Translations under genes and position numbers: made by a program
From: Apostichopus japonicus
Lineage: Eukaryota; Echinodermata; Holothuroidea; Aspidochirotida; Stichopodidae
Direction of reading: 5' to 3'
Length of the DNA stretch: 64,000 nucleotides
NCBI RefSeq assembly: GCF_037975245.1
Contig: NC_092568.1
Coordinates: forward strand, 2,480,001 to 2,544,000
In this document: one piece after another, positions 16,292-53,661 of the stretch
Layout of the letters: every line of letters starts with the position of its first letter
Numbering within the stretch: the first letter of the stretch is position 1
Notes under the pieces: generated by a model
Databases searched by the model: none
The model's input: the letters and a program-made list of their open reading frames with translations, nothing else
What the model was told of the DNA's origin: nothing

Positions 16292-19200
16292 ATGGCGGAC
16301 AGTGAAAAGAAAGGCCAACAGCTAATGGCTGAAGCAGAGAAGAAGCTGAAATCCAGTCAAAGCTTTTTGGGTTCCATGTTTGGGTATGAAATGTGTAGCT
16401 TGAATGTTGTCCAATGTTAGACTTTGACCTAATAAAATAGTGCCTAGGCTCAGCCTATCTTACTAGTATGCAATGGCCTGTTACATCAGGTTATGCCCAG
16501 GGTACGCCTTGCTTTAGTTTAGGCCTGATTATATTTTATAGTGTAATCAAACATGAAATACAGTAGGATGGTGACTTCGAAGTTCGGCCACTTAAGACTT
16601 AAAACACCCCAAAACTAAATATTCTGGTATAAATCATTTGAAAATATACTTCATATGGTGGGAGAATTTTGTTATAGTACGATACACGGCCAAACTTTCT
16701 TTCCTGCAAACTGTTTTCACGTTGTTTTCCAAGAAGATTCTTCGTGATTGTGGAACTGGTATTTCTTGCTAGAGTATTGCGAAGTTCGGACACGCAACCC
16801 ACAGTGTGGCGCTGGTGATAAAATTGGTGGCGCAGTTGCTTTTTCAGTAATTATAACAGACTTCATAGATCTTCGTCATTTTATTGACAAATATGTAAGT
16901 AATTTCTTGCACACGGGTCATTTTGGAGAGAAAATAACTGTAGCTTCGTACTTTTTGGTGAAATTTGACTCTTCCTGTAGATTTTCATGGTGAAATCGTG
17001 TATTTCTTAGGGTGTCCGAACTTTCGCAGTATGCCGAACTTCGCAATACTGCCTATACTAGGTCTAGATCAGCTCTCACAATTGGGACCATAACCTTACG
17101 TAAACTGTTAATTTTTATAATGTCGCCACTGTCATAAGTTCACCACCTAACTTTGGATTCTCCATATTGAAAATAATCCATTCAGCCAACTTTCCAGAGT
17201 TTTGCAAATATGAGGTCATTTAGGTCTAGGCTAGTTGCAAATTACTGGGATTTTCCTTAAGCTGTTTCAAACTAATGAGTTTCTGATGTTACTGGTATAA
17301 TGTATTTAAGAATATCCATGAAAGCCATTGTACTAACTGCTTTAAATGGCACCAAACACTGTTCTTCATACATATTGTATTTCCCTAACCAGTAGCCTAT
17401 TCTATTCAGTAGTGTGTAGTGGCGACATTATAACCGCCTATTGATATTGCCAGGTGAATTTTTTTGTATATGGTGACTGTTTCAAAGTTGTCTTAAACAA
17501 ACTTTGATGAATTTTTGTTTAACTTTTCCCTGAAAGATACATCTAAGTATTCCTGTGCCAATATGGACAGAAGAAAATTATTTCAGGTTTTTTTTAGAGG
17601 ATATATCATGTTGAAGTGGCGACTTAATGACAGTTTACGTTAGGCTACGTTACCTCTGTTAGAGTTATTTTAACTATGTAACTAAGGTCTAGGCCTAGGA
17701 GAGTTGTGATTGTTGCAAAGAAATCACTGGGGGTTTGGATATAGGTACTGTTGCTGCCTCAATTCCACTAGCCCATATACAGTAGGGTATATAATGTATT
17801 GCACTTCAAAGTCAGTTTCTGATGATCTTTTTCTCCCACCAATAAACTAAATTCATGAATAAATAAAAACAGAACTCAGTTAAGTTATGTTAATAATGTG
17901 ACCAATAAGTGTCTTTCTCTACCTTGAGTTTGCAGAGGATTCCACTGCAGCTAGAAGTGAGGACTTTTTGTAGCTCATTTTCATTCCTGTCAGATTGGCT
18001 AACTATGCTGGGTACCACACTCCTAAAAACATTACCCACAAAGTTACGTAGCTGTTGTGGCCAAGGCTACTGTACCTGGTCAAAATTTCTTGACCAGAAA
18101 CTAAACATTGCCAACATATTGCCACATTTCAGCGGAAGTATTTCTGTGGTTCAAGAAAAATTTTGCATGGAAATTTAGTACAGTCTCTTTGAAATTTCTG
18201 AATGTAGGTTCAGTACGTTGTTCAGTAGTTCTGGACTTGATGCAAGTTTATCACAGAGTGGATTTTTTTGCTGTGATACTGTAGAGTTTATAACATAGCA
18301 TTTGCTCAGACCACACATCTGTTCCCTTTACATTTCAGTGGGGCACAAAAACAGGAAGAAGCGTGTGAACTCTATGAGAGGGCAGCAAACCAATTTAAAA
18401 TGGCCAAGAAGTGGAATGGTAAGATACAAATTGATTATGCAGGGAACACCTTGCTGAATTGTTACATTTGTGTGTAAGTTTTTAGGTTTACAAAGTTATA
18501 TCATTCCTCATAAAAAAAAGCTTAAAAGTTCTCCGATACTTTTATCAAACATTGCTATTCACGTTCATCCCTGTGTAGCAATTTGGCTATTAAGCATGTA
18601 GCATTGTGCTATTGCAATACTAAATATCATTCACTATTGAATGTGATATGAAGAGAGTTTAAGAGTAAAAATGACTGCCAATCTATCAGACTCTCAAAAG
18701 TTAAATAATACTAATTGTTGTCTGTCATATATACAAAAAATGAACTATTGCACATAAAGTGAAATTAAAGTCATAGTTAACAAGCTATATATGGCTGTTT
18801 TCATGAGTGGGATAGAGATTGGCTGTGGACTCATTCACAGTACAATCTACATAAGTCAATAATTTTGTAGGCATCCTCAAGTTCTGTGCTATTTTGGTCT
18901 CTTTTGTGATGTTTAAATGTAATTGTAATCACAAATTAATGGGAATATTCATTATACTATTTAGGCAAATTGTTTTGATCTGTTGCAAACATGTAAGTAT
19001 TCATGTGATCATTGTGATGGTTCCTCTATGAATTCCTCTATTGAAAACCAGATACCAATATCTTCTGGTTATCTTTCAGGGTATTAAACATCGGTTATAA
19101 CATAGCATAACGTTATGGAAACTTACTACACAAATGCAAAGATGCACATAACAGGTTTTTGTACATTGTATCACAGCATTTGTCTGTATTTCATGAGATA

Positions 19201-22200: not shown

Positions 22201-25200
22201 GACGAAGACTTAGTTCAGATATTTTCTAACCTAATCATAAATTGAAATTTTGTAGGTATAGTGCAGCAGTGACAATAGCTGCCATATGTTTTAGGTTCCA
22301 GGTACAATGTCCTTTAGGAAACAAATGCTATTTAAATATGCTGTTGTGCATTGAAAAAAAATGTTTGGCCAGTTTCTTGGTAGTGTATTGTGACGTGGCA
22401 TTAATTTCTATGTTTTGTGCATGATGATAGCCGGAAGCTTCACTACTTGCTCCTGTGATGTGAGTGGAGGTTCTTCATCTCTATTTATATTTGAGGAAAA
22501 AAGTGTGGAAGTTTGGGAGGAAACTCCCTTCATTTTCAAAAGGATGGAAGTCCTGGCTCACCGAATGGAGTAAGGGGCTCATACATACCTGCTTTGTAAT
22601 TCTTGGAATGCTAAATATTTGAAAGTAAAGGTTTGATATCAACTGCTTCTCACCCACAACCTTTAAAGTTATGGAACCAACTGTCGTACTGTATCATACA
22701 GACTGACTTGTAATATTTCAACTAACCGACTTCTCTGTTTCAACAGGCTGCGTTATGTCATATGTGTGTGGATAACCAAAACGCTCAGATCGCCATTAGT
22801 AAATATGAAGACAAATTTCCAGCATTCAGTGACAGCAGAGAATACAAGCTTTTACAGGTTAGTTAGTAACCTTTTATCTTGTTATGTGAAAATTGTCAAT
22901 CATATCATGGTTTTCCAAATTTAGGTAAACTTGGAATCTAAAATTTCATATATTAACTACATTCTGCAGGCTATGTCGTGGTTAGTTTACTGTTTTACCC
23001 CTATCTTAATAGATACACAATTAAATATGCTGATGATGCAGTCATACCCCTCCCATCATATTCATCATATCCTGCATCATCTCCCATGTCATATCTTGTA
23101 CCTCATTCCATATCCCACATATCTATACCCTGCACCATATCCCAATCATATCCCACATCATATCTCACATATTCATACCCTGCATCATCTCCCATGTCAT
23201 ATCTTGTACCTCATTCCATATCCCACATATCTATACCCTGCACCATATCCCAATCATATCCCACATCATATCTCACATATTCATACCCTGCATCATCTCC
23301 CATGTCATATCTTGTACCTCATTCCATATCCCACATATCTATACCCTGCACCATATCCCAATCATATCCCACATCATATCCCACATATCTATACCCTGCA
23401 CCATATCCCAATCATATCCCACATCATATCTCACATATTTATACCCTGCATTTTCTTCCATGTCATATCTTGTACCTCCCATATCCCAGATATCCATACT
23501 CCAACATCATATCCTCAATTATATCCCACATCATATATTCATACCCTGCATTATGTCATATCTTGTACCTCAATCCTTATCCCATATATCCATACCCTGC
23601 ATCTATCCCCAATCATATCCCACATCATATCCCACATATTCATACCCTGCATCATCTCCCATGTCATATCTTGTACCTTTTTCCATATCCCAGATATCCA
23701 TACCCTGCATCATATCCCCAATCATATACCACATCATATCTCACATATTTATACCCTGCATTATCCCCCATGTCACATCTTGTACCTAATTCCATACCCT
23801 ACATATCCCACCTATCCATACCCTGCATCATATCCCAATCATATCCCACATCTTATCTTATATATATATATATGCCCACAATTACTATATGGTGTCTTGT
23901 GTCATACCATCATCATATCATAGATCATACCCAAGTATCACAGAAGATACTCAGGTGTCTGTCTACTTAAAAATGTTGATGATGCTATTCTGTTTTCAAT
24001 GCAGAAATTGGTTGCTGCTGGCGAAGAACAGAATGCAGATGATTTTACAGATGCTGTGAGTTTTTTTTACAATTTCAGCTGTTTTAAAAAAATGACTTGT
24101 TTTGTGGGTTATATGATATCATAAGTGTAGTGGCTTGACTGGTTTAGTAGATTTCTATGTATAATGTACTCTGCAAGAAATTAGGCAGTTTTAGAATGGA
24201 TTTTCTCTGGTTGGTTCTCGTACAACCAGATCCATTATTTTGGTCGTCTGAACAGCAAATTTGGTTGTCCGAAAAAATAGCAAAGTAGCAAATTCTAAAC
24301 GGCCTGTAGGATGTACACTGTAGGTAGGTGAACAGAACACCAGCTTTGGTGGTGATAGCAACTCATCATTTTACCTATTTTGGGGGTAGGTACTTATTTA
24401 GTTATAATTCATTTCAAATATGATGTAAACAACTAGTCATTCACTAGACAACCTATGCAGCAGATTTTGGTTTTCGAACAGAAATTTAGTCATCTTAGAC
24501 TACCGGACTACCATTAAATATTGCCATGACTAGAGATGTTGAGTTATGCATTCTTCAATAGACTATATAGGTCTATTAAAACTATATTGAAAACTATTAG
24601 ATGCAGCTATCGTATGCTATAGTCACATATGAATAATGTATCAGACCACATGTAATATTAATACGCTTTCACAATATGAAACAAACACACTGGGTGCACA
24701 AATAAATTTCTTTTCAAGTCAGTGGTAGAAAAAATTGTGAAGTATCCAAGATTTATGCTTTGGAAACCGTTGATGGCTTATTAAAAGATGACGTTATACT
24801 TAAAGGATTGGTTCATGTGTTTGACATGTCTATTTTGTATGAAAGAGCGCAAAAAGGCAAAAAGAACAGTGAAGAAACTACCATGATAGCATGCTCTGTT
24901 AAGGAGATATGACACTTTGAAGATATCAAACTTTCTTTGAAAACGACTGGTGTAGAAAGACTTACTGTGAGGGTGTGATGTCACATCCTCACTTCCTTAA
25001 CATTTGTGAATATATTTCTTTAAAAATTATTTACATTTTTTAACACATTTGAAAATAATATAATCAAAAATTCTTCAGATGTTTAATCTCAAATACTTCC
25101 TTTGACAAATATGAGATCTCCTGACATATCTTTTGGTTGAAAGTCATGAAATCTCACAAAATATTTAGAGAGAAAAACAAAGACTTTTCAGGAATGTGAG

Positions 25201-29337: not shown

Positions 29338-30175
29338 AACCTAATAACGAATTAGCAGTAGAATGTCACAAACATTTTTTTTCAGCAATAAGGCCAGAAG
29401 ATAGATCATGGCATTGGCAGCCCACACTAAGTTGATTTTATAAGCATTAGCCTAGAGACTCTAGAGGTCTAATTAATGCAACCCTCACTACACTACTGTA
29501 GGTTGGTTCAGTACAGTACAATGGCAAAGATATATCTTGATAATTTTAAAACTGATTTACTGCAGAGGCTGATGGTTGCATCCACAACACCTTATCTTAT
29601 GCATGAAGATATGCTGGGCTTGACTTAATGAAAGGATATTCTTCTTCTCAACTACTATAGTCAGTATTGCGAAGTTCGCCATACTGCGAAGTTCGGGCAC
29701 CCTAAGAAATACACGATTTTCACCATGAAAACCTACAGGAAGAGCCAAATTTCACCAAAAAGTACGAAGCTACAGCTATTTTCTCTCCAAAATGACCCGT
29801 GTGCAAGAAATTACTTACATATTTGTCAATAAAATGACGAAGATCTATGAAGTCTGTTATAATTACTGAAAGAGCAACAGCGCCACCAATTTTTACCAGC
29901 GCCACACTGTAGGTTGCGTGGCCGAAATTCGCAATACTCTAGCAAGAAATACCAGTTCCACAATCACGAAGAATCTTCTTGGAAAACAACGTGAAAACAG
30001 TTTGCAGGAAAGAAAGTTTGGCCGTGTATCGTACTATAACAAAATTCTCCCACCATATATATTTATATATAAGTATATTTTCAAATGATTTATACCAGAA
30101 GATTTAGTTTTGGGGTGTTTTAAGTCTTAAGTGGGCGAACTTCGAAGTCACCATCCTACTAGTAGTAAGCTACAG
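29338..30175 (+). repeat. Dispersed repeat, copy interrupted by a 0.5-kb element
   Basis: Bases 29338-29661 match 14598-14955 (shared segments include TCATGGCATTGGCAG and GATATGCTGGGCTTGACTTA). The repeat resumes after the insertion at 30161 with AGTAGTAAGCTACAGTT, as at about 14953-14970. Confidence 0.7.
29662..30160. mobile_element. 0.5-kb non-coding element with CAGTA ends, copy 2
   Basis: Inverse copy of the element at 16561-17051. It begins CAGTATTGCGAAGTTCG and ends near ACTTCGAAGTCACCATCCTA. The uninterrupted paralogous site at about 14940-14970 reads straight across the insertion point, which confirms it as a discrete mobile unit. It is non-coding; the transposase would have to be supplied elsewhere. 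Confidence 0.8.
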
Positions 30176-45800: not shown

Positions 45801-48800
45801 TGGGTTTATCTATGGGTGGCAGGGGGGAGGAGGGGTAAGTAAAGGGTAAGCCATGCTCAAATTATCGGTCAACTATCAAAAACAGAAAGTACTCTCATGC
45901 AATGAAATATCATTTTAAGGCAAGAAAATGGAACTGCCTCCTACACTACAATAAGTGCTGAACTGCTATACTATCCATAGCCAGGGGTATAACTATTCAA
46001 TTTTCAGAGTCTGTGAAATGACTCAGCAAAGGGTTTTCCTCATATATGCTGTGATCAATTTCTACAGCATTTATACACATAACTTGTACTGTTACATCAT
46101 AGTTTTCAACGTTACATTGTAATCCCTCACCTCCCTCTATCCTGCCCCCAACCCCCTCTCCCCACTGCTCAGCAGAACTGCCTATATCTATATCAAAGTC
46201 TGTCCCTTCCCATTTCATCATATGGACAATTGAAGCCCTCCCATATTGTTATTCCTACAGGGAATGTACCTACCTTTAGCAGTTGCAACCTCCCCATACG
46301 GGTGAGCCATACTCTGCATCGCGGTTGGGGCGATAGCAATCGGAATGTCTACCTTTTGTCCAAGAATAGTTGTTGAAAGGTCACGTTTGGAGACATCACG
46401 TAAGAGCTCCGGGTACAACCGTAGTCTGTGTATTAAAGTGAGATTATTTTCAAAAAGCTTCTAAAAGTTAAGATAATAAGATTGATCTCTAAATATTTTA
46501 CTTTTCAAATACGGACAATCACCTCATAACCCCAAAGTCACTGGTTTCAATCCCAGCCTCTAGAGTCAATATTTTATCAGCTTTTTTTTCTCCAAAAGTT
46601 ATTACCAATTTTTCTGCTCTTTTGTTTTCATGATTTACTGAAATTGTTTGGGCAATTCCTGCTGCCTATGAAACACTTGTACATTAAACAACTTTGACAA
46701 ATTCTGTTTTGAGGTCGGATGTCACCTGGTGAATTTGAAGAAATCGCCACTGCCACATCCTGTCACTAACTACTGTAACATAAATAAACAAATAAAACAT
46801 ATAAAGATCAATCCCAAGTTAAAAACAAGTTTGCCAACCAGTTGAGAGTTACAGTGAATTCATTGTCAGCAACTTCAGTTGGCTAAGTGGATGACTTCAT
46901 TGGATGCATTACATCTGGTAGGTGGGATAGAGGAGGGGGATAGGGAGGTGTTAGGGGAGGGGGAGGGGAAGTGTGGGTTTGGCAGAGGAAGTGTCACATT
47001 TTCTTTTAAGCTATTTCATTGTGGAGAATGGGTAACAAAGTAATGAACTTGGTATGAATTACTTTATGATATTAGTATTTTAGACCTTCCCTAAGTTTGA
47101 ACTCAAGTAAACATACCAGTATGTGCTTTATTAGACTTGTTTGTCTTGTCCAGAAGTCTGGGATCACAAAAATCAACCAGCTACTAAAACTTTAGAAATA
47201 AGCCGCTGACGCAGACGGTGCCAAGGATAAAATTCTAAATACCTCAGAATGTTTTGGTGTCGATAAGATCATGCAAGCCTTATAGTGTCTGTTACATAAA
47301 TATTACTGAAGTTTTGTTCCATGGGTGCCTTTTATACTGTCTAATACACAGTTCTTTGCAGTACCACTTTTTCGCTTATAGAAAATTTCAGCAATGAAGT
47401 GAAAATGAATTTTACAAGCCTCATAGTGCATTCCATTATAAACACAATTAACCTGTCCTAATCGATCCCTAAACCTTCAATCTCTTTTGGTACTGCCGTG
47501 TAGTGAATAATCACACAACACAAGGACGTACAGTTTTGCCTAAATTTTGGCCCATTTCCTCAGATCGAGTTAAAGGAAACCAAGATGAATACACAAGCAA
47601 GTGTCTTTACGTAATATCAAAACAGGAAGTAGCCTTTTCTACTACAAAGTGAAGAATGTTTGCTGGACTCGATGTTCATTGAAGCAATTGATGTCTTGAG
47701 GTTATTTATTATATATGTGCCCGATCGAACGGCTCGCTATGCTGCAGAGACATTACGTGAGGGAGAAAGAGGCTGACAATACATCTTAAGCATAATGTTT
47801 GAATAAAATATGGGTCTGTTCACGTTAAAGCGCCCTATTTGGTTGCCTGAGGTACCAAATTTTCAAATTACAGTAAAGAACTTCTATTCTAAGTAAATAA
47901 CATAACTAATATCTGCAATTTATGAATCAGAATTGACCAGAGCTTAAACTATTCTGGAAATTATATTCAAGATGGTTGAAAGTGTGACAATCTATAAATT
48001 TTCCAAAATTTGTTCTTTTTGTAATGGTGGTGTGTCATTCCATTGCTGCTACATTTGGGAATTCTGTTTTTATTTTCTTTATTAACACAAAATTTGCTAT
48101 TGTAAGACAAGTTTTCAATGATATCGATGATGTTTTTTAAAAAATATTCAAGTATCATTAGAAAATATTCAGTTTTTCCTGAAATAAAGTTAAAAAAGTT
48201 TTTCTTTAAAGAACAAAATTGAAATTAATAGTAACAATTATACCATAAAATTAAACCACAACATAAGCACATATATTAACCAAAAGCTGAAAATTCTGGG
48301 TCATGTCCTCTCAGAATTTTTTTTTTCTTGACTCTTGTTTCAGACATCACCCCTCCAAAATGATCTTGTTTCGGACATCACCCACCAATGGTTTACCTAA
48401 TATATTAAACCTAATATTTAGTAATAAACCAAATGATGTTCATTTCATGGCAATAATGAATAGAAAAGCATTTTAGTAAGTTGTTACCTGTACCAAAAGA
48501 GATCTATGGACCCTTCCTAGGTTCCAAGTTCAAAACAAAGAAAAGGGATACAAGTGATCCAAGTGATCAACGAGACAATTATTAAACGAAGGCCATGCTT
48601 GTTAATACTTAGCAATATATATCAGTACATCACGATATGTGATGATAACAAACAGCATCAAATTCATTTGAAATAATGAAAACTGCAAACACTTGTTTTA
48701 TAGATTTGCATAAGACTGTCTTGGACTATGTTTCGGACATCACCACAACTGTATTAGGACATCACTGTAATGTTTTCTACACAACGCATATCATATCAAA

Positions 48801-51800
48801 AGTTAAATTTGTAACAAAGGGGTCTCTGTTGTTGAGAAGCTACCTACAAGGTATAATGACAGTTTTGAACTTATTATAGTTCAAATCCTCAGTGTTTATT
48901 ACAAGTTACTTTATGAGCGTTTCGGACATCACTGAATGTTTCGGACATCACCTTGGAAAAATGTTCACAAAGCTGCATAACAATAATACATATTTCAGCA
49001 GGTAACAACAATATGAAGTAATATTTTTGCTATTCAAACCTGTTCAAGCAACAAAAGTCTGCTTCAATATAGACACAACAGTCAGACAGTACAGTACTTA
49101 GCAGATTTACACTAGATATTATGAATTTTTGAGGGAATGCAGTTTATTAAAACACCATAGACTGAGAAATCAACAAGGTGTACTGAAAAATAATGGCACT
49201 GTAAATTCTTGGGAAAACAAATGCCCTGAGGCACATATTTCAAATTGAACATCTGGACAGAGCCGATAGGTGAAAAGATAGGTGATAAGTGAAAATCTGA
49301 AGGCTTGGTGTAAATGATAACCCCATTTAATGTTAATGAATTATCACTGTTTACTACATACTCAGTTCATACATATCCAGAATACACACATTTAGTTTAG
49401 ATCTTCCTGCAAGCAGGAACTCGCGAAGAAGCCATCATTGGCTTATCAAAGCCGCAAGCTGACCAAAGTCAGTCTTTTAGATTCATTTTTAGCAACCATG
49501 ATTATGAATTGTCAATTGTCAACAACTCTGTAACTGGACGACATACATTAATCTTGGAGTGACACAAACTCGGGACCTTATGATTGAAAGGCACCGGCGT
49601 TAACCACTGCGCAAACACTCCATAACACTCCACATAGTGACCATTCATTGATCACCATTGGCATAAAGTTAATCTCTGCTTCACCACATTCGTTACTGTA
49701 CCTGTCCAGCATACCATTTGCATTGGCAAGCGTTCACCAACACTTCCCAGACATCAACTTATACATTATTTTGCCGAAAATGGTATTATTATTGACTGCA
49801 AAGAAATTTTTCCCCAAAAGGGTTATAGAATTCTTTTTATCTTTTACGGTTTCCACATTTCCATCACTACCTAGATGAAGTCTGCAATAATTGAAACAAA
49901 CAGCAAATATTTACCATTTAATAAATATACAGATGTACACAGGAGACATCCCTACATAGCTAATTTGGCACCCACCTGTTGTAGCTAGTATCAATGAGTC
50001 TACTATTTAAACAATTTTCAGAAGGGAGGTATCATAACCTAAACTCCACTAGAATGCTTGGTCCTATTTTGTAATGTCAGCAATAACAACTATTTTGCAC
50101 CCCTTCAAATGGTACCCACCCACTCCCACCCCCTCCCCATGCACCTTTGAGCTGGATCTGCCAATGTTGAAGATTGCTTCCACTGGCTCAGCTAAGCAAC
50201 AGTAGTAGCCAATACGAGTAACTACTATAAGTACTAGTTTAAATATCCTTCTTTATTGAGATTCATCATTATGCCTTGGCAATTATGATGTGAAAAACAA
50301 GTATTCATGGTTTGTACAAATACTCCTTGTCACATATGAATTAAATGATTTACTTTGTAAGATTGTTATTATTTAAGCTTATGGCCTAAACTTACATTTA
50401 AGTATAGGGCTTAGATGTTATGGTATACAGCAGCTCAGCAAATTGTTCAGCTTTATCCTTAAGTTTCATCATGATAAATATCTGTATACTGTACATATCA
50501 CTAAAGATCTGAAGTCTCAGTGAAGCAACTCGGAATGAAAACATGGTCATGCATGCATGATGCACCACTCTGTGTATATTACTACTGTTGACACCATCGA
50601 GTAAACCTGGAGGTTTCATCACACAGTAAATCCGTGTACCAGTCAAAGAGGGTCATGTGCTGTAATGTGTTCCAGGGTGGTACTAATAATCTGATCTACT
50701 GCATTAATCTTCACATTGCCCATTGTGATTTACTAACTAATACAGTAAATGTATATTTGGGCTTAGAGCAGCAGACAACACACAGTTACCTAGCAATGTC
50801 TGTACCTTAACATTATAGTTATAGTCGTTGACCAACATTTATAGGTTAGATCACCAGACACGTTCCACAGTCCTACTACTTAGCTAACATCTTCCCAAAA
50901 TACTGGTAGCTTTTCTTGACAACCATCAAGTTCCCATCAACAGTTAAACTGCTCTGACATAGGGTGTTATAGATGCACAGTGAGTCCATATCATATAGAG
51001 CGACAGACGACACTGAACGGTGTTCAGTTTTTCAAAGTGACGTTGACATACTATGCTGTAGACCAGGGTTGTCCAACCTACGGCCCGCTGGCCACAGTCC
51101 GGCCCGCCGCAGGGTTGCGTCCGGCCCGCCAGAGAGGCTCTACGGTGTGAAATTTAGTGAGCAGATTTATTGATAACAATTTGAAGCTATATAATCAATC
51201 ATTCGAACCTTCTGGGTCCAAAAAAAAAACTTCATACAGGTCAGTTTGTATGACACTCTCTCAGCGGAGGGGAGGGGAGGGGGGCCGGCTGGACTGTTTT
51301 ATCAGGAATGAAAATAAGTTAGTGCGCTCCACGCGCAGTGCTCACATTTTGTTGCCTTAGGCTTCGCGCAAAATTCGAAAAATCGAGCGAAGGGTTCATA
51401 CGGCCCCCTACTTCATCATAATCATTCCATGTGGCCCTCCTCTGCAAAAGGTTGGACAACCCTGCTGTAGACTGATGTGATAGAAACATGAGCTACTGTG
51501 CTACAAAACTCATCTAGGCCTATTCCAATTGTGTGTAATTAACTTTACAATTATCAATATGATATTGGGAAATATCAAATTGGTACCGCCATGGAAGCTA
51601 AAACACATCACATGACAGTCCATGCATGGTACCCACGTGCCCTTTGATGTAGTTCTTCTAGCCTATAAAAAGGCTTTCTATGGTTGTGACAAATAGCTTG
51701 ATTTAAGCTATAGCAGACAATTACAGCATTACTTTCTAATGTACTGTATACTGTGATGGTATCCTGATACATGTTATATCAGAAAAAATTTCACTAAACG

Positions 51801-53661
51801 TTTTTTTTACTTCTTCAGTACTAAATGATGGAAAATTGTAGTGTTAATGATGTCAGTTCTAGAAAAATCCAAGTAACTTGATGTTCCCAGTAACATTCAT
51901 ACCCAAATATGTAGAATATCATTTTAGACTTGTCACAAGTCATCAAAAGATGAATACATGTTGGTCAAATGACACCAAAAGTTAAGAAGCATTCTGTTGT
52001 AGGATCTTAGTGTATTCTAGCACACTGAAATCAACCAATTGAATCATTCAGTTGAAACTAGTGCTGTTTTACAATATGTTGGATTCACAAAAGTGATGTC
52101 CGAAACACATGGTGATGTCCGAAACATACTTTTAAGGTTATTTTGCTATAATATTTGGTAAAGATGGATGAAGTTTTGAGTAGTGCAGTATGTATGTTTG
52201 TAACAATAGAACTTGTCATAATACATGAAGTGCTCATCTATTGTGTCTTTTTTTCAAGCAACATAAAGCAATATTAATTAAAACTTGTTTCGGACATCAC
52301 TGGTGTTTCGGACATCACACACATGGACGGAAAATTTGAAATGGTTATAAAATCAAAACGGATGAGTGGAAATGTGTCATGTACATACTGTAGTTGAGGG
52401 AGTACTTATGCTTTAATTAGAGTAACAAAACAGTCTTGTGGGTTTTAGCATACTTCATATATTAGTTGCTTCATGACGTTTCGGACATCACCAAAATGTG
52501 GACGGAAACATTTTGCATGTTGTTTAACTTCATTGTGTAGTAAAATGTGGCTGAATGGACATGCATCTGATATATATTTTATTTGATACAACTATGACAG
52601 TATTGAAAAGGCACACCACTTTCAACATTTGTTATTTAACCCCAAACTATGCCACTCATAAATTGGTGTATAAATGTGGACGGAAAAAGTGATGTCCGAA
52701 ACACTGGTCCAGTTTCGCAATAATTCGCAAATTCATCGATGAAATTTTCTGAAATATTTATGAGAGGGAACCTATAGCCACAAAGTTCAATCATGACAAA
52801 ATTTGGAGTAATCCTCTTTTGGAGTTGAGAATAGATCAAAGTACAAATTGTGCAGTTTGAAAACGGCAACATTTTCCGTCCACATTTCGGCACTTCTGGG
52901 AGTATAGCATACCTATATGCATATCTCAGGAAATTGTCTATGCTATGGTAGGTACAGCTAGGTGGACTCTCTCCATGGGGATAATATTTGTATCTCTAGA
53001 ATCTCTAATTATTTTGTCACAATGCTCCAAATGCCATTTATGCTAATTTGGGCGCTTTAACGTGAACAGACCCATATTTACATAGCCCAGCATATAGCTA
53101 GCCTAATGTACAGGTTGATACATACAAATGGCTTGTGTGCTTTGAATTTTTTCAATCCCTACCTTTTCTGGGATTAGGTTAAAGTTTTGGCAACAAAGTA
53201 TATATTCATGATAATGCAATTATTTACTTCACGAAACCTTTGTAATGGAAGGAACTCATGCCAACACTGTTTCCCTCCCCTCCCCCCCCCCCCCAGGTCT
53301 GTGCTCTTTAATTTGGGAATAAGTTGTTTAATTATATATGACAGTTCTATGACAGTATAGAAACTATAGTAAAAAGCACTGCACAATACACCTACAGGTA
53401 CTGAGGAATTTGCACTTGACTTTGACTTTGAAAGCTGAATGCCATATAATTCCCATTCAGATATTCTCAAGTTCACCACAGAATCTGCCAACAAGACAAA
53501 AACAAACAAACAGCAACTTATAATTACCTCCTGTAGGCAGCCACATTGTCTTTAACCGTCTGTTCAAGATTAGCACCACTGGAATAGTAATCAAATGCAT
53601 ACTTTGGAAGATGTCTCTTAGCGTAGCTTTCAAAGTCATCCAAACATGTCATAGAAGCCAT
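36882..53661 (-). CDS. HAO1: Peroxisomal (S)-2-hydroxyacid oxidase (glycolate oxidase type), complete
   Basis: An FMN enzyme that oxidises glycolate and other 2-hydroxyacids to 2-oxoacids, making hydrogen peroxide. Eight minus-strand exons join in phase: 53661-53528, 46425-46274, 45549-45294, 44702-44536, 39142-39051, 38218-38057, 37383-37314 and 36952-36882. They give 367 residues (human HAO1 370). An in-frame TAA precedes the ATG. Active-site residues of the family are all present by position: the N-terminal DYYSSGAN tyrosine, APTAMQ, Trp109 in SSWST, Tyr131 in QLYVYKDRD, Asp159 and Arg166 in [10 protein letters not shown], Lys232 in LPIVLKGIL, and His256 and Arg259 in [10 protein letters not shown]. 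The FMN-phosphate site is [20 protein letters not shown] plus GRPVLWG. The last three residues are SNL, a variant of the SKL peroxisomal signal. Trp109 favours HAO1 over HAO2. Intron 1 (7.1 kb) is mostly one transposon; intron 4 (5.4 kb) holds nested MITEs and a SAP-domain fragment. Confidence 0.96.
37651..37802. repeat. Tandem duplication, period 75 bp
   Basis: Two units share TCACATTGTTTACTGATAG, then AGGTCTCTTACAATGACCA and GGCCAAATTCTACCA. The period of 75 is a multiple of three, which explains the repeated-looking open frame on the minus strand. Located in HAO1 intron 6. Confidence 0.88.
39296..40405. mobile_element. hAT-like MITE, CATAGGCGTAG family, copy 2 (expanded)
   Basis: Starts CATAGGCGTAGGAG and ends CTCCTACGCCTATG, flanked by CCTAAGTG at 39288-39295 and 40406-40413. 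The left part carries about five tandem units of roughly 84 bp, each with ATTCGGGCAATATGCTGAGA, TTCGGGCACCTACTGAAAG and TTTGCAATGTGTTTTTCAA, between about 39344 and 40160. The fifth unit is split by a nested element (39727-40117). A GC-rich palindromic patch CGCGCGGAGCGCGCG lies near 40320. It is inserted in HAO1 intron 4, about 150 bp upstream (in transcript order) of exon 5. Confidence 0.9.
39727..40117. mobile_element. Nested hAT-like MITE, CAGTGGC ends
   Basis: Starts CAGTGGCAGAGCG and ends CGCTCCGCCACTG, flanked by GCACCTAC at 39719-39726 and 40118-40125. That duplicated sequence is part of the host MITE's internal repeat unit, so this insertion is younger than the repeat expansion at that unit. 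391 bp, non-coding. Confidence 0.9.
42074..42665. mobile_element. Probable MITE with clustered TGTCATTCG motifs
   Basis: The right part has six copies of (T)GTCATTCG at 42563, 42573, 42583, 42623, 42632 and 42641. The left part has inverted forms (GAATGACA near 42096, CGAATGACA at 42121, CGAATGA near 42173). Outer parts are loosely inverted (ACTAAAATGAATGACA versus ACAAAAACGAATGACAG), but neither a clean terminal repeat nor a target duplication could be fixed, so the limits are approximate. It lies in HAO1 intron 4 next to the SAP-domain fragment. Three copies in a row are exactly 10 bp apart. Confidence 0.5.
42716..43281 (-). pseudogene. SAP-domain fragment of a repetitive SWIM/YqaJ-type protein, frameshifted and truncated
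   Basis: The start at 43281 encodes a SAP-type DNA-binding helix pair ([20 protein letters not shown], then [14 protein letters not shown]). Around 43095-43105 the similarity shifts to another frame, which continues through [45 protein letters not shown] and [13 protein letters not shown] and stops at 42716. From memory of the family, this order belongs to the N-terminal part of multi-copy metazoan proteins that continue into a SWIM zinc finger and a YqaJ-like nuclease domain; those parts are missing here. A minus-strand AATAAA-rich stretch overlaps the stop. It is carried in HAO1 intron 4, antisense to nothing and in the same direction as HAO1. I read it as a dead copy of a mobile or virus-like gene. 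Confidence 0.6.
48337..48951. repeat. Left subterminal motif field (GTTTCGGACATCAC)
   Basis: Copies at 48337-48350 (one mismatch), 48368-48381, 48730-48743, 48919-48932 and 48938-48951, all in plus orientation, plus a partial ATTAGGACATCAC near 48753. They are 0.5-1.1 kb from the left terminal repeat. Likely a binding site for the element's transposase, by analogy with subterminal repeats in other transposons. Confidence 0.8.
49556..49620 (-). repeat. tRNA-like (SINE or tRNA pseudogene) remnant
   Basis: Read on the minus strand, GCGCAGTGGTTAACGCC resembles an A box and GGTCCCGAGTTTG a degenerate B box, about 30 bp apart. The flanking acceptor stem is not complementary, so it is not a functional tRNA gene. 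Confidence 0.35.
51064..51464. mobile_element. Nested hAT-like MITE, CAGGGTTGTCCAACCT ends
   Basis: Starts CAGGGTTGTCCAACCT and ends AGGTTGGACAACCCTG, flanked by CTGTAGAC at 51056-51063 and 51465-51472. Both ends are GC-rich with CGGCCCGC patches. 401 bp, non-coding, inserted in the 5.26-kb element in HAO1 intron 1. Confidence 0.92.
52093..52702. repeat. Right subterminal motif field (GTTTCGGACATCAC, both strands)
   Basis: Plus-strand copies at 52287-52300, 52305-52318 and 52478-52491; minus-strand copies at 52093-52106, 52112-52125 and 52689-52702. A second motif, (T)GGACGGAAA, occurs at about 52325, 52498 and 52677, and inverted near 52871. The field lies 0.35-1 kb from the right terminal repeat. 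Confidence 0.8.

Follow-up and report, generated by a model that had tools for sequence, protein, structure and literature searches.

According to the excerpts available, Sola2 transposons produce AT-rich target duplications of 4 bp, with AWWT recorded in one host and ATAT, AAAT and ATTT in another (PMC3627910). Kolobok elements are described in the excerpted text as having 5'-RR..YY-3' termini and a 4-bp TTAA duplication, and their KolobokP lineage as having duplications of 3-5 bp and long terminal direct repeats (PMC9587614). In the portion of a further source at hand, the subterminal repeats of Spm/En, which transposition requires in cis, are bound by the element-encoded protein TNPA, and non-autonomous En/Spm (CACTA) elements can be trans-mobilised (PMC2613891).

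The window analysed here, the whole stretch of 64,000 nucleotides of Apostichopus japonicus DNA, contains an element that is probably a non-autonomous transposon with terminal inverted repeats (TIRs), moved in trans into ATAT-like sites; the 14-mers that lie near both its ends are most likely further binding sites. The element belongs to a genomic family with exact ends, 4-bp duplications and a non-coding consensus, and it carries a nested insert that is present at three sites.

Structure of the element and gene context

The element occupies positions 47812..53073 (5262 bp) and is delimited by a TIR pair; alignments of genomic copies end a few bases from both points. The left TIR, GGGTCTGTTCACGTTAAAGCGCCC, covers 47812..47835 on the plus strand and the right TIR 53050..53073 on the minus strand, the latter being the exact reverse complement of the former over 24 bp. 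The termini are GGG..CCC, and the end sequence of the family is GGGTCTGTTCAC. The target duplication ATAT flanks the element at 47808..47811 on the left and at 53074..53077 on the right. In the earlier note, perfect inverted repeats of 25 bp had been described around an element of about 5.26 kb. Their perfection and the extent of the element held, and the length was corrected to 24 bp because the 25th base is part of the flanking ATAT duplication.

With an HAO protein as query, HAO-like exon blocks were located on the minus strand, exon 1 at 53527-53661 and exon 2 at 46275-46448. Judged from these two blocks, about three quarters of the first intron of the HAO-like gene consists of the element, in agreement with the statement that it forms most of HAO1 intron 1. 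Most of a first intron is accounted for by one insertion.

Genomic family and target site duplications

The TIR was searched in the 671.6-Mb genome with up to two mismatches and was found at 96 places, compared with 0 for the reversed pattern as control. Facing TIRs within 12 kb of each other formed 36 pairs, leaving 24 TIRs unpaired. Thirty pairs measured 4.6-5.3 kb and five 5.8-10.1 kb, and one was a mini-copy (L064) of 132 bp. It had been considered at the outset that no other copy might share both ends; the 36 facing pairs settled this in favour of a family. The complete sequence was read for 13 of the 36 pairs. Nine full-length copies, taken from twelve, were 89-100% identical and yielded a consensus that measures 4,836 bp when the nested insert is excluded; L009 was added as two halves for the counts, and L011/L012 and L015/L016 were excluded. 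A similarity search with the left end gave matches of 85-100% identity (40 of 127 candidates scored). From the 5.8-kb long copy on C19, one piece of 350 bp was read, with 298 bases family-like.

A TIR variant of diverged relatives was present at 83 places and added seven to those already located. Among these seven, C20:28482436 pairs with the previously unpaired C20:28478542 at a distance of 3.9 kb. Ten of the 24 unpaired TIRs were read over approximately 0.7 kb each, and eight of these were family members or diverged relatives. Three further unpaired TIRs were left ends by similarity (C17:31902457, C19:10292157 and C19:10318186). Neither the 14-mer nor the 13-base TIR start was found in the text of the literature searched, and sea cucumber papers on such elements contained nothing on the family among the matches listed. 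The family may already be named in repeat databases (Repbase, Dfam). The 17-base TIR start matched 0 viral contigs.

A perfect 4-bp target duplication was present in 18 of the 24 copies with both ends read, a census that excludes L043/L044 (one end read only). Of the other six, five differed between the two sides at a single base of the four. In L063, just one base agreed; the left end of this copy has four additional bases with ATAT beyond them, which apparently explains the poor match. Base counts over the 18 perfect duplications were A15, T16, A13 and T15, thus ATAT-like. AGGT, ATGC, ACCT and TTAT each occurred on both sides of one copy and GTAT on both sides of two; one perfect duplication (L055/L056) sits in an AT repeat. 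When ends were paired across different copies as a control, 112 of 552 combinations (20%) agreed. This value is high owing to the strong AT bias of the target, which also accounts for some of the agreement within copies. The question whether the duplication is TA or ATAT had been raised with insertion-polymorphic sites in mind. From the copies themselves, 4 bp and an ATAT-like sequence were favoured.

Relationship to known superfamilies

Superfamily placement was made by ends and target duplication, and Sola2-like targets fit best. As in the excerpted description of Sola2, the duplication is 4 bp and AT-rich (perfect and ATAT-like in 18 of 24 copies), and both have short TIRs. The likeness is one of target and short TIRs, and no frame resembling a Sola2 transposase was detected in the copies read. 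The GG..CC ends of the element agree with the RR..YY termini given for Kolobok in the available text, and the duplication has the same length of 4 bp. A TTAA-specific Kolobok of the excerpted kind was rejected, as 0 of the 18 perfect duplications were TTAA. KolobokP is compatible in duplication length, and the long terminal direct repeats attributed to it in the same extract were not seen in the element.

With En/Spm (CACTA), as far as the portion at hand describes it, the element shares a short repeated motif in both subterminal fields, a similarity of working and not of membership. In contrast to En/Spm, the fields here begin 0.37-0.53 kb inside the element. CACTA itself was rejected, since the excerpt specifies CACTA termini and a 3-bp duplication (PMC2613891) and the element has GGG..CCC and 4 bp. 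The GGG..CCC termini also disagree with Chapaev as defined in the available part of its source (PMC4079192). Going by the extracts for these groups, the element has neither the TTAA target and 5'-CC..GG-3' termini of piggyBac (PMC10045372, PMC9587614) nor the TA..TA (or TG..CA) termini and 6-bp duplication of IS3EU/GingerRoot (PMC10045372). Tc1/mariner, with its 2-bp TA duplication, was excluded because the shared AGGT, ATGC and ACCT would not be expected from a TA duplication; identity over 4 bp was found in 18 of 24 copies. Academ elements make duplications of 3-4 bp. Compared with large non-autonomous TIR elements generally, the family is alike in TIRs, in duplications, in lacking coding sequence and in its probable movement in trans. 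It differs in its uniformity and its length, which is 4.8 kb even when the nested insert is discounted, and in having no coding relative with the family TIR in what was read.

Coding capacity and search for a partner transposase

The longest stop-free frame in the consensus comprised 119 aa, a length that was also reached in 19 of 200 shuffles. It contained 31 non-synonymous and 11 synonymous codon changes, and stops were present in two copies. Based on shuffles, codon changes and stops, this frame was judged a chance product and not a gene. A Pfam search of the consensus gave no match. The family consensus is non-coding by the frame, codon-change and Pfam tests, and this result, together with the 36 TIR pairs and the 4-bp duplications, upholds the original reading of the locus as a large non-coding transposon. 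As the copies appear to have no gene of their own, their movement must depend on an enzyme from another source.

A transposase-bearing partner was not found in the long copies and unpaired ends read (13 of 36 pairs whole and ten unpaired TIRs). The 23 pairs read in part or not at all and 14 of the 24 unpaired TIRs leave room for a coding partner; most of those pairs have the non-coding length. Three of the five long copies were read whole, each with a nested insertion. Labels of nested elements were assigned by eye from translations and ends, except for rva_4 (Pfam). The extra sequence of L009 (C1:14944100-14952800, 8.4 kb) was a nested Kolobok-like insert, that of L015/L016 (10 kb) a BEL/Pao-like insert and that of L063 (C12:27026180-27035560, 9.3 kb) a Penelope-like insert, and all three were rejected as coding copies. 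By eye, the Kolobok-like insert showed AG termini, TTAA and a THAP-like protein fragment, and the Penelope-like insert a long open frame with RT-like and GIY-YIG-like parts and an adjoining partial second copy. In a 7.65-kb copy on C12, four of five sampled 300-bp pieces were family-like, and 1 kb of it (L044) held the start of an insert of unassigned type.

A pair 45.6 kb apart on C20 was rejected as a coding copy as well. It consists of approximately 2.4 kb of the element followed by other repeats, which include LINE-like frames as well as an rva_4 integrase. For the core of this integrase (PF24764), there were 143 matches genome-wide among 150 of 224 candidates scored, and 0 of 14 control genomes matched. 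Many of the matches were located on C17 between 15 and 25 Mb, and several were without stops. Among the matches scored, inspection showed a single one, that on C20, to be enclosed by facing TIRs, and rva_4 was dropped as a partner because of this.

An orphan family is conceivable, in which the element of the transposase itself no longer, or never, shared these ends. The enzyme might then come from a stand-alone host gene or from an undescribed superfamily that depends on 14-mer fields some 0.6 kb long close to both ends, possibly with a second protein at TGGACGGAAA on one side only. We consider this unlikely.

Subterminal 14-mers and a second motif

The 14-mer GTTTCGGACATCAC was present eleven times in the element, ten times exactly and once with one mismatch. 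The left field holds five 14-mers, all on the plus strand and 0.53-1.14 kb from the element end, at 48337..48350 (the mismatched one, exact in the family consensus), 48368..48381, 48730..48743, 48919..48932 and 48938..48951. The right field holds six, three per strand and 0.37-0.98 kb from the element end: 52287..52300, 52305..52318 and 52478..52491 on the plus strand and 52093..52106, 52112..52125 and 52689..52702 on the minus strand. A further match with three mismatches starts at 48752. Between 48951 and 52093, there were zero matches even with up to three mismatches. The number, exactness and position of the motifs near both ends only were thus as the earlier note had given them. At up to three mismatches, the window contained 17 matches, compared with a mean of 3.95 and a maximum of 8 in 100 shuffles. 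All shuffles were exceeded, and the recurrence is beyond chance, as had been proposed.

In the whole assembly (671.6 Mb, 35 contigs), the 14-mer occurred exactly at 425 places and its reversed pattern at 5. Among the first 100 of these 425 places, 99 were alignable to the family or to diverged relatives, and C3:6601182 was the sole place without detectable family similarity. The concern that the motif might be common outside such elements did not materialise (1 of the first 100). In the family consensus, all eleven 14-mers are exact, and their flanks are mostly unrelated from one to another.

A second motif, TGGACGGAAA, which was absent from the earlier note, is confined to the right field, where it occurs four times. 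The four sites are located at 52324..52333, 52499..52508 and 52677..52686 on the plus strand and at 52873..52882 on the minus strand, the last three inside TGTGGACGGAAA. Three of the four lie at most 7 bases from a 14-mer. The motif could be a putative site of a second protein.

Conservation of the 14-mers was compared with their surroundings. Young copies showed changes at 12 of 1540 letters in the 14-mers, compared with 349 of 22025 elsewhere in the fields (p 0.0097 in a Fisher test; a value as low was reached in 3.1% of 2000 resamples), where the discovery of these copies through exact 14-mers may lower the 14-mer change rate. The TIRs of the young copies had 0 changes in 240 letters on the left and one change on the right. 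In old relatives, 315 of 378 14-mer columns were kept, compared with 5406 of 6551 in the surroundings (p 0.73); these figures are biased by the choice of loci, three by TIR and five by 14-mer. The old set comprised eight loci representing seven elements (L011 and L012 are one), with L029 and L030 excluded as duplicates of L028. The 14-mers of L011 were clearly worse kept (50/70 compared with 1070/1206), and those of L012, L028, L067 and L074 were better kept than the rest. The TIRs of the old relatives were better kept, at 157/169. As judged from these alignments, young copies lend modest support to selection on the 14-mers, and old copies lend none. The result from old copies is not decisive because dead copies need not keep their sites.

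The 14-mers are most likely putative transposase binding sites. In the same non-autonomous transposon, they may alternatively have served the expression of the autonomous ancestor or bind a regulator of host or element origin (enhancer, silencer or replication protein). Their position 0.37-1.14 kb inside the ends, and not beside the TIRs, would suit such a role, as would the old copies keeping them no better than their surroundings. Nevertheless, we find this reading rather doubtful, given that 14-mers near both ends and none in between form the layout expected for end recognition and that eleven identical 14-mers stand in the consensus despite unrelated flanks. It is still less probable that the 14-mers are functionless, passive leftovers of an old internal amplification in the founder element. 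In so young a family, identity inherited from the founder could still persist, and old copies show no excess conservation of the motif; against this, the neighbouring sequence mostly differs from one 14-mer to the next, and changes inside the 14-mers of young copies occur at about half the outside rate despite the CpG in the motif.

Proposed mechanism

With the 14-mers taken as transposase binding sites, a cut-and-paste transposase made elsewhere would recognise the 24-bp TIRs and cut there, and the excised element would insert at an ATAT-like site, giving rise to the 4-bp duplication. The fields of 14-mers would be bound by the transposase or by an accessory DNA-binding protein that the autonomous partner supplies, and this binding would serve recognition and pairing of both ends. 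A second protein may act at TGGACGGAAA. The copies of the family are highly identical, their ends are known to the base, the target signature is 4 bp long, and the candidate binding sites form a fixed set. These properties ease the search for the transposase and a direct test of the role of subterminal repeats in an animal element.

Mobility, nested insert and segmental duplications

A nested insert of 401 bp, which had not been described in the earlier note, was located at 51064..51464. It has hAT-like ends (CAGGGTTGTCCAACCTACGGCCCG..., labelled by eye) and is surrounded by the 8-bp duplication CTGTAGAC at 51056-51063 and 51465-51472. The insert with the identical 8-bp duplication was common to the window, L014 and L021, which are located on C8, C2 and C7 and differ in their flanks. 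It was absent from L009, L010, L012, L013, L015 and L017-L020 and from the sampled piece L094. Eleven pairs measured 5.18-5.29 kb: the three insert carriers, L013 without the insert and seven unread for the insert. Since the same nested insert was found at three sites with different flanks, the 5.2-kb unit apparently moved at least twice after the insert had landed, unless gene conversion spread the insert. L014 and L021 showed no substitution and three gaps over approximately 5.25 kb. This near-identity suggests very recent activity. It could come from gene conversion instead of recent transposition, because the duplications of both copies are imperfect.

On C16, the region G000:C16:6881420-7156565 contained eight TIR places, seven of them as GGGTCTGTTCACGTTCAAGCGCCC and several 24-28 kb apart. 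These places probably represent a segmental duplication that includes roughly 150 bp from the right end, because the two places read are also alike in 20 bases outside the element. The other two of the ten unpaired TIRs read probably lie within this duplication. L066 ends in a repeat that has 25 occurrences, every one of them on C16. On C2 at 9.48-9.60 Mb (L028-L030 and L035-L040), a duplicated cluster was observed, with a diverged and truncated relative of the element in its units; the relatives L028-L030 lie in tandem duplications next to SRCR-like frames (labelled by eye). That the copies in general arose through segmental duplication rather than transposition, for which these relatives near 9.5 Mb on C2 and probably at 6.88-7.16 Mb on C16 might speak, was tested and is extremely improbable, being unsupported for the full-length copies read, which are spread over many chromosomes, differ in their flanks and have exact ends and, for the most part, 4-bp duplications.

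Other repeats in the window

An inverted pair of approximately 0.5 kb was present at 16562-17061 and 29652-30160, 12.6 kb apart, with several blocks of 92-98% complementarity; it probably consists of two copies of another repeat. At 22925-23970, a tandem repeat of approximately 108 bp gave rise to long open frames in three reading frames of one strand.
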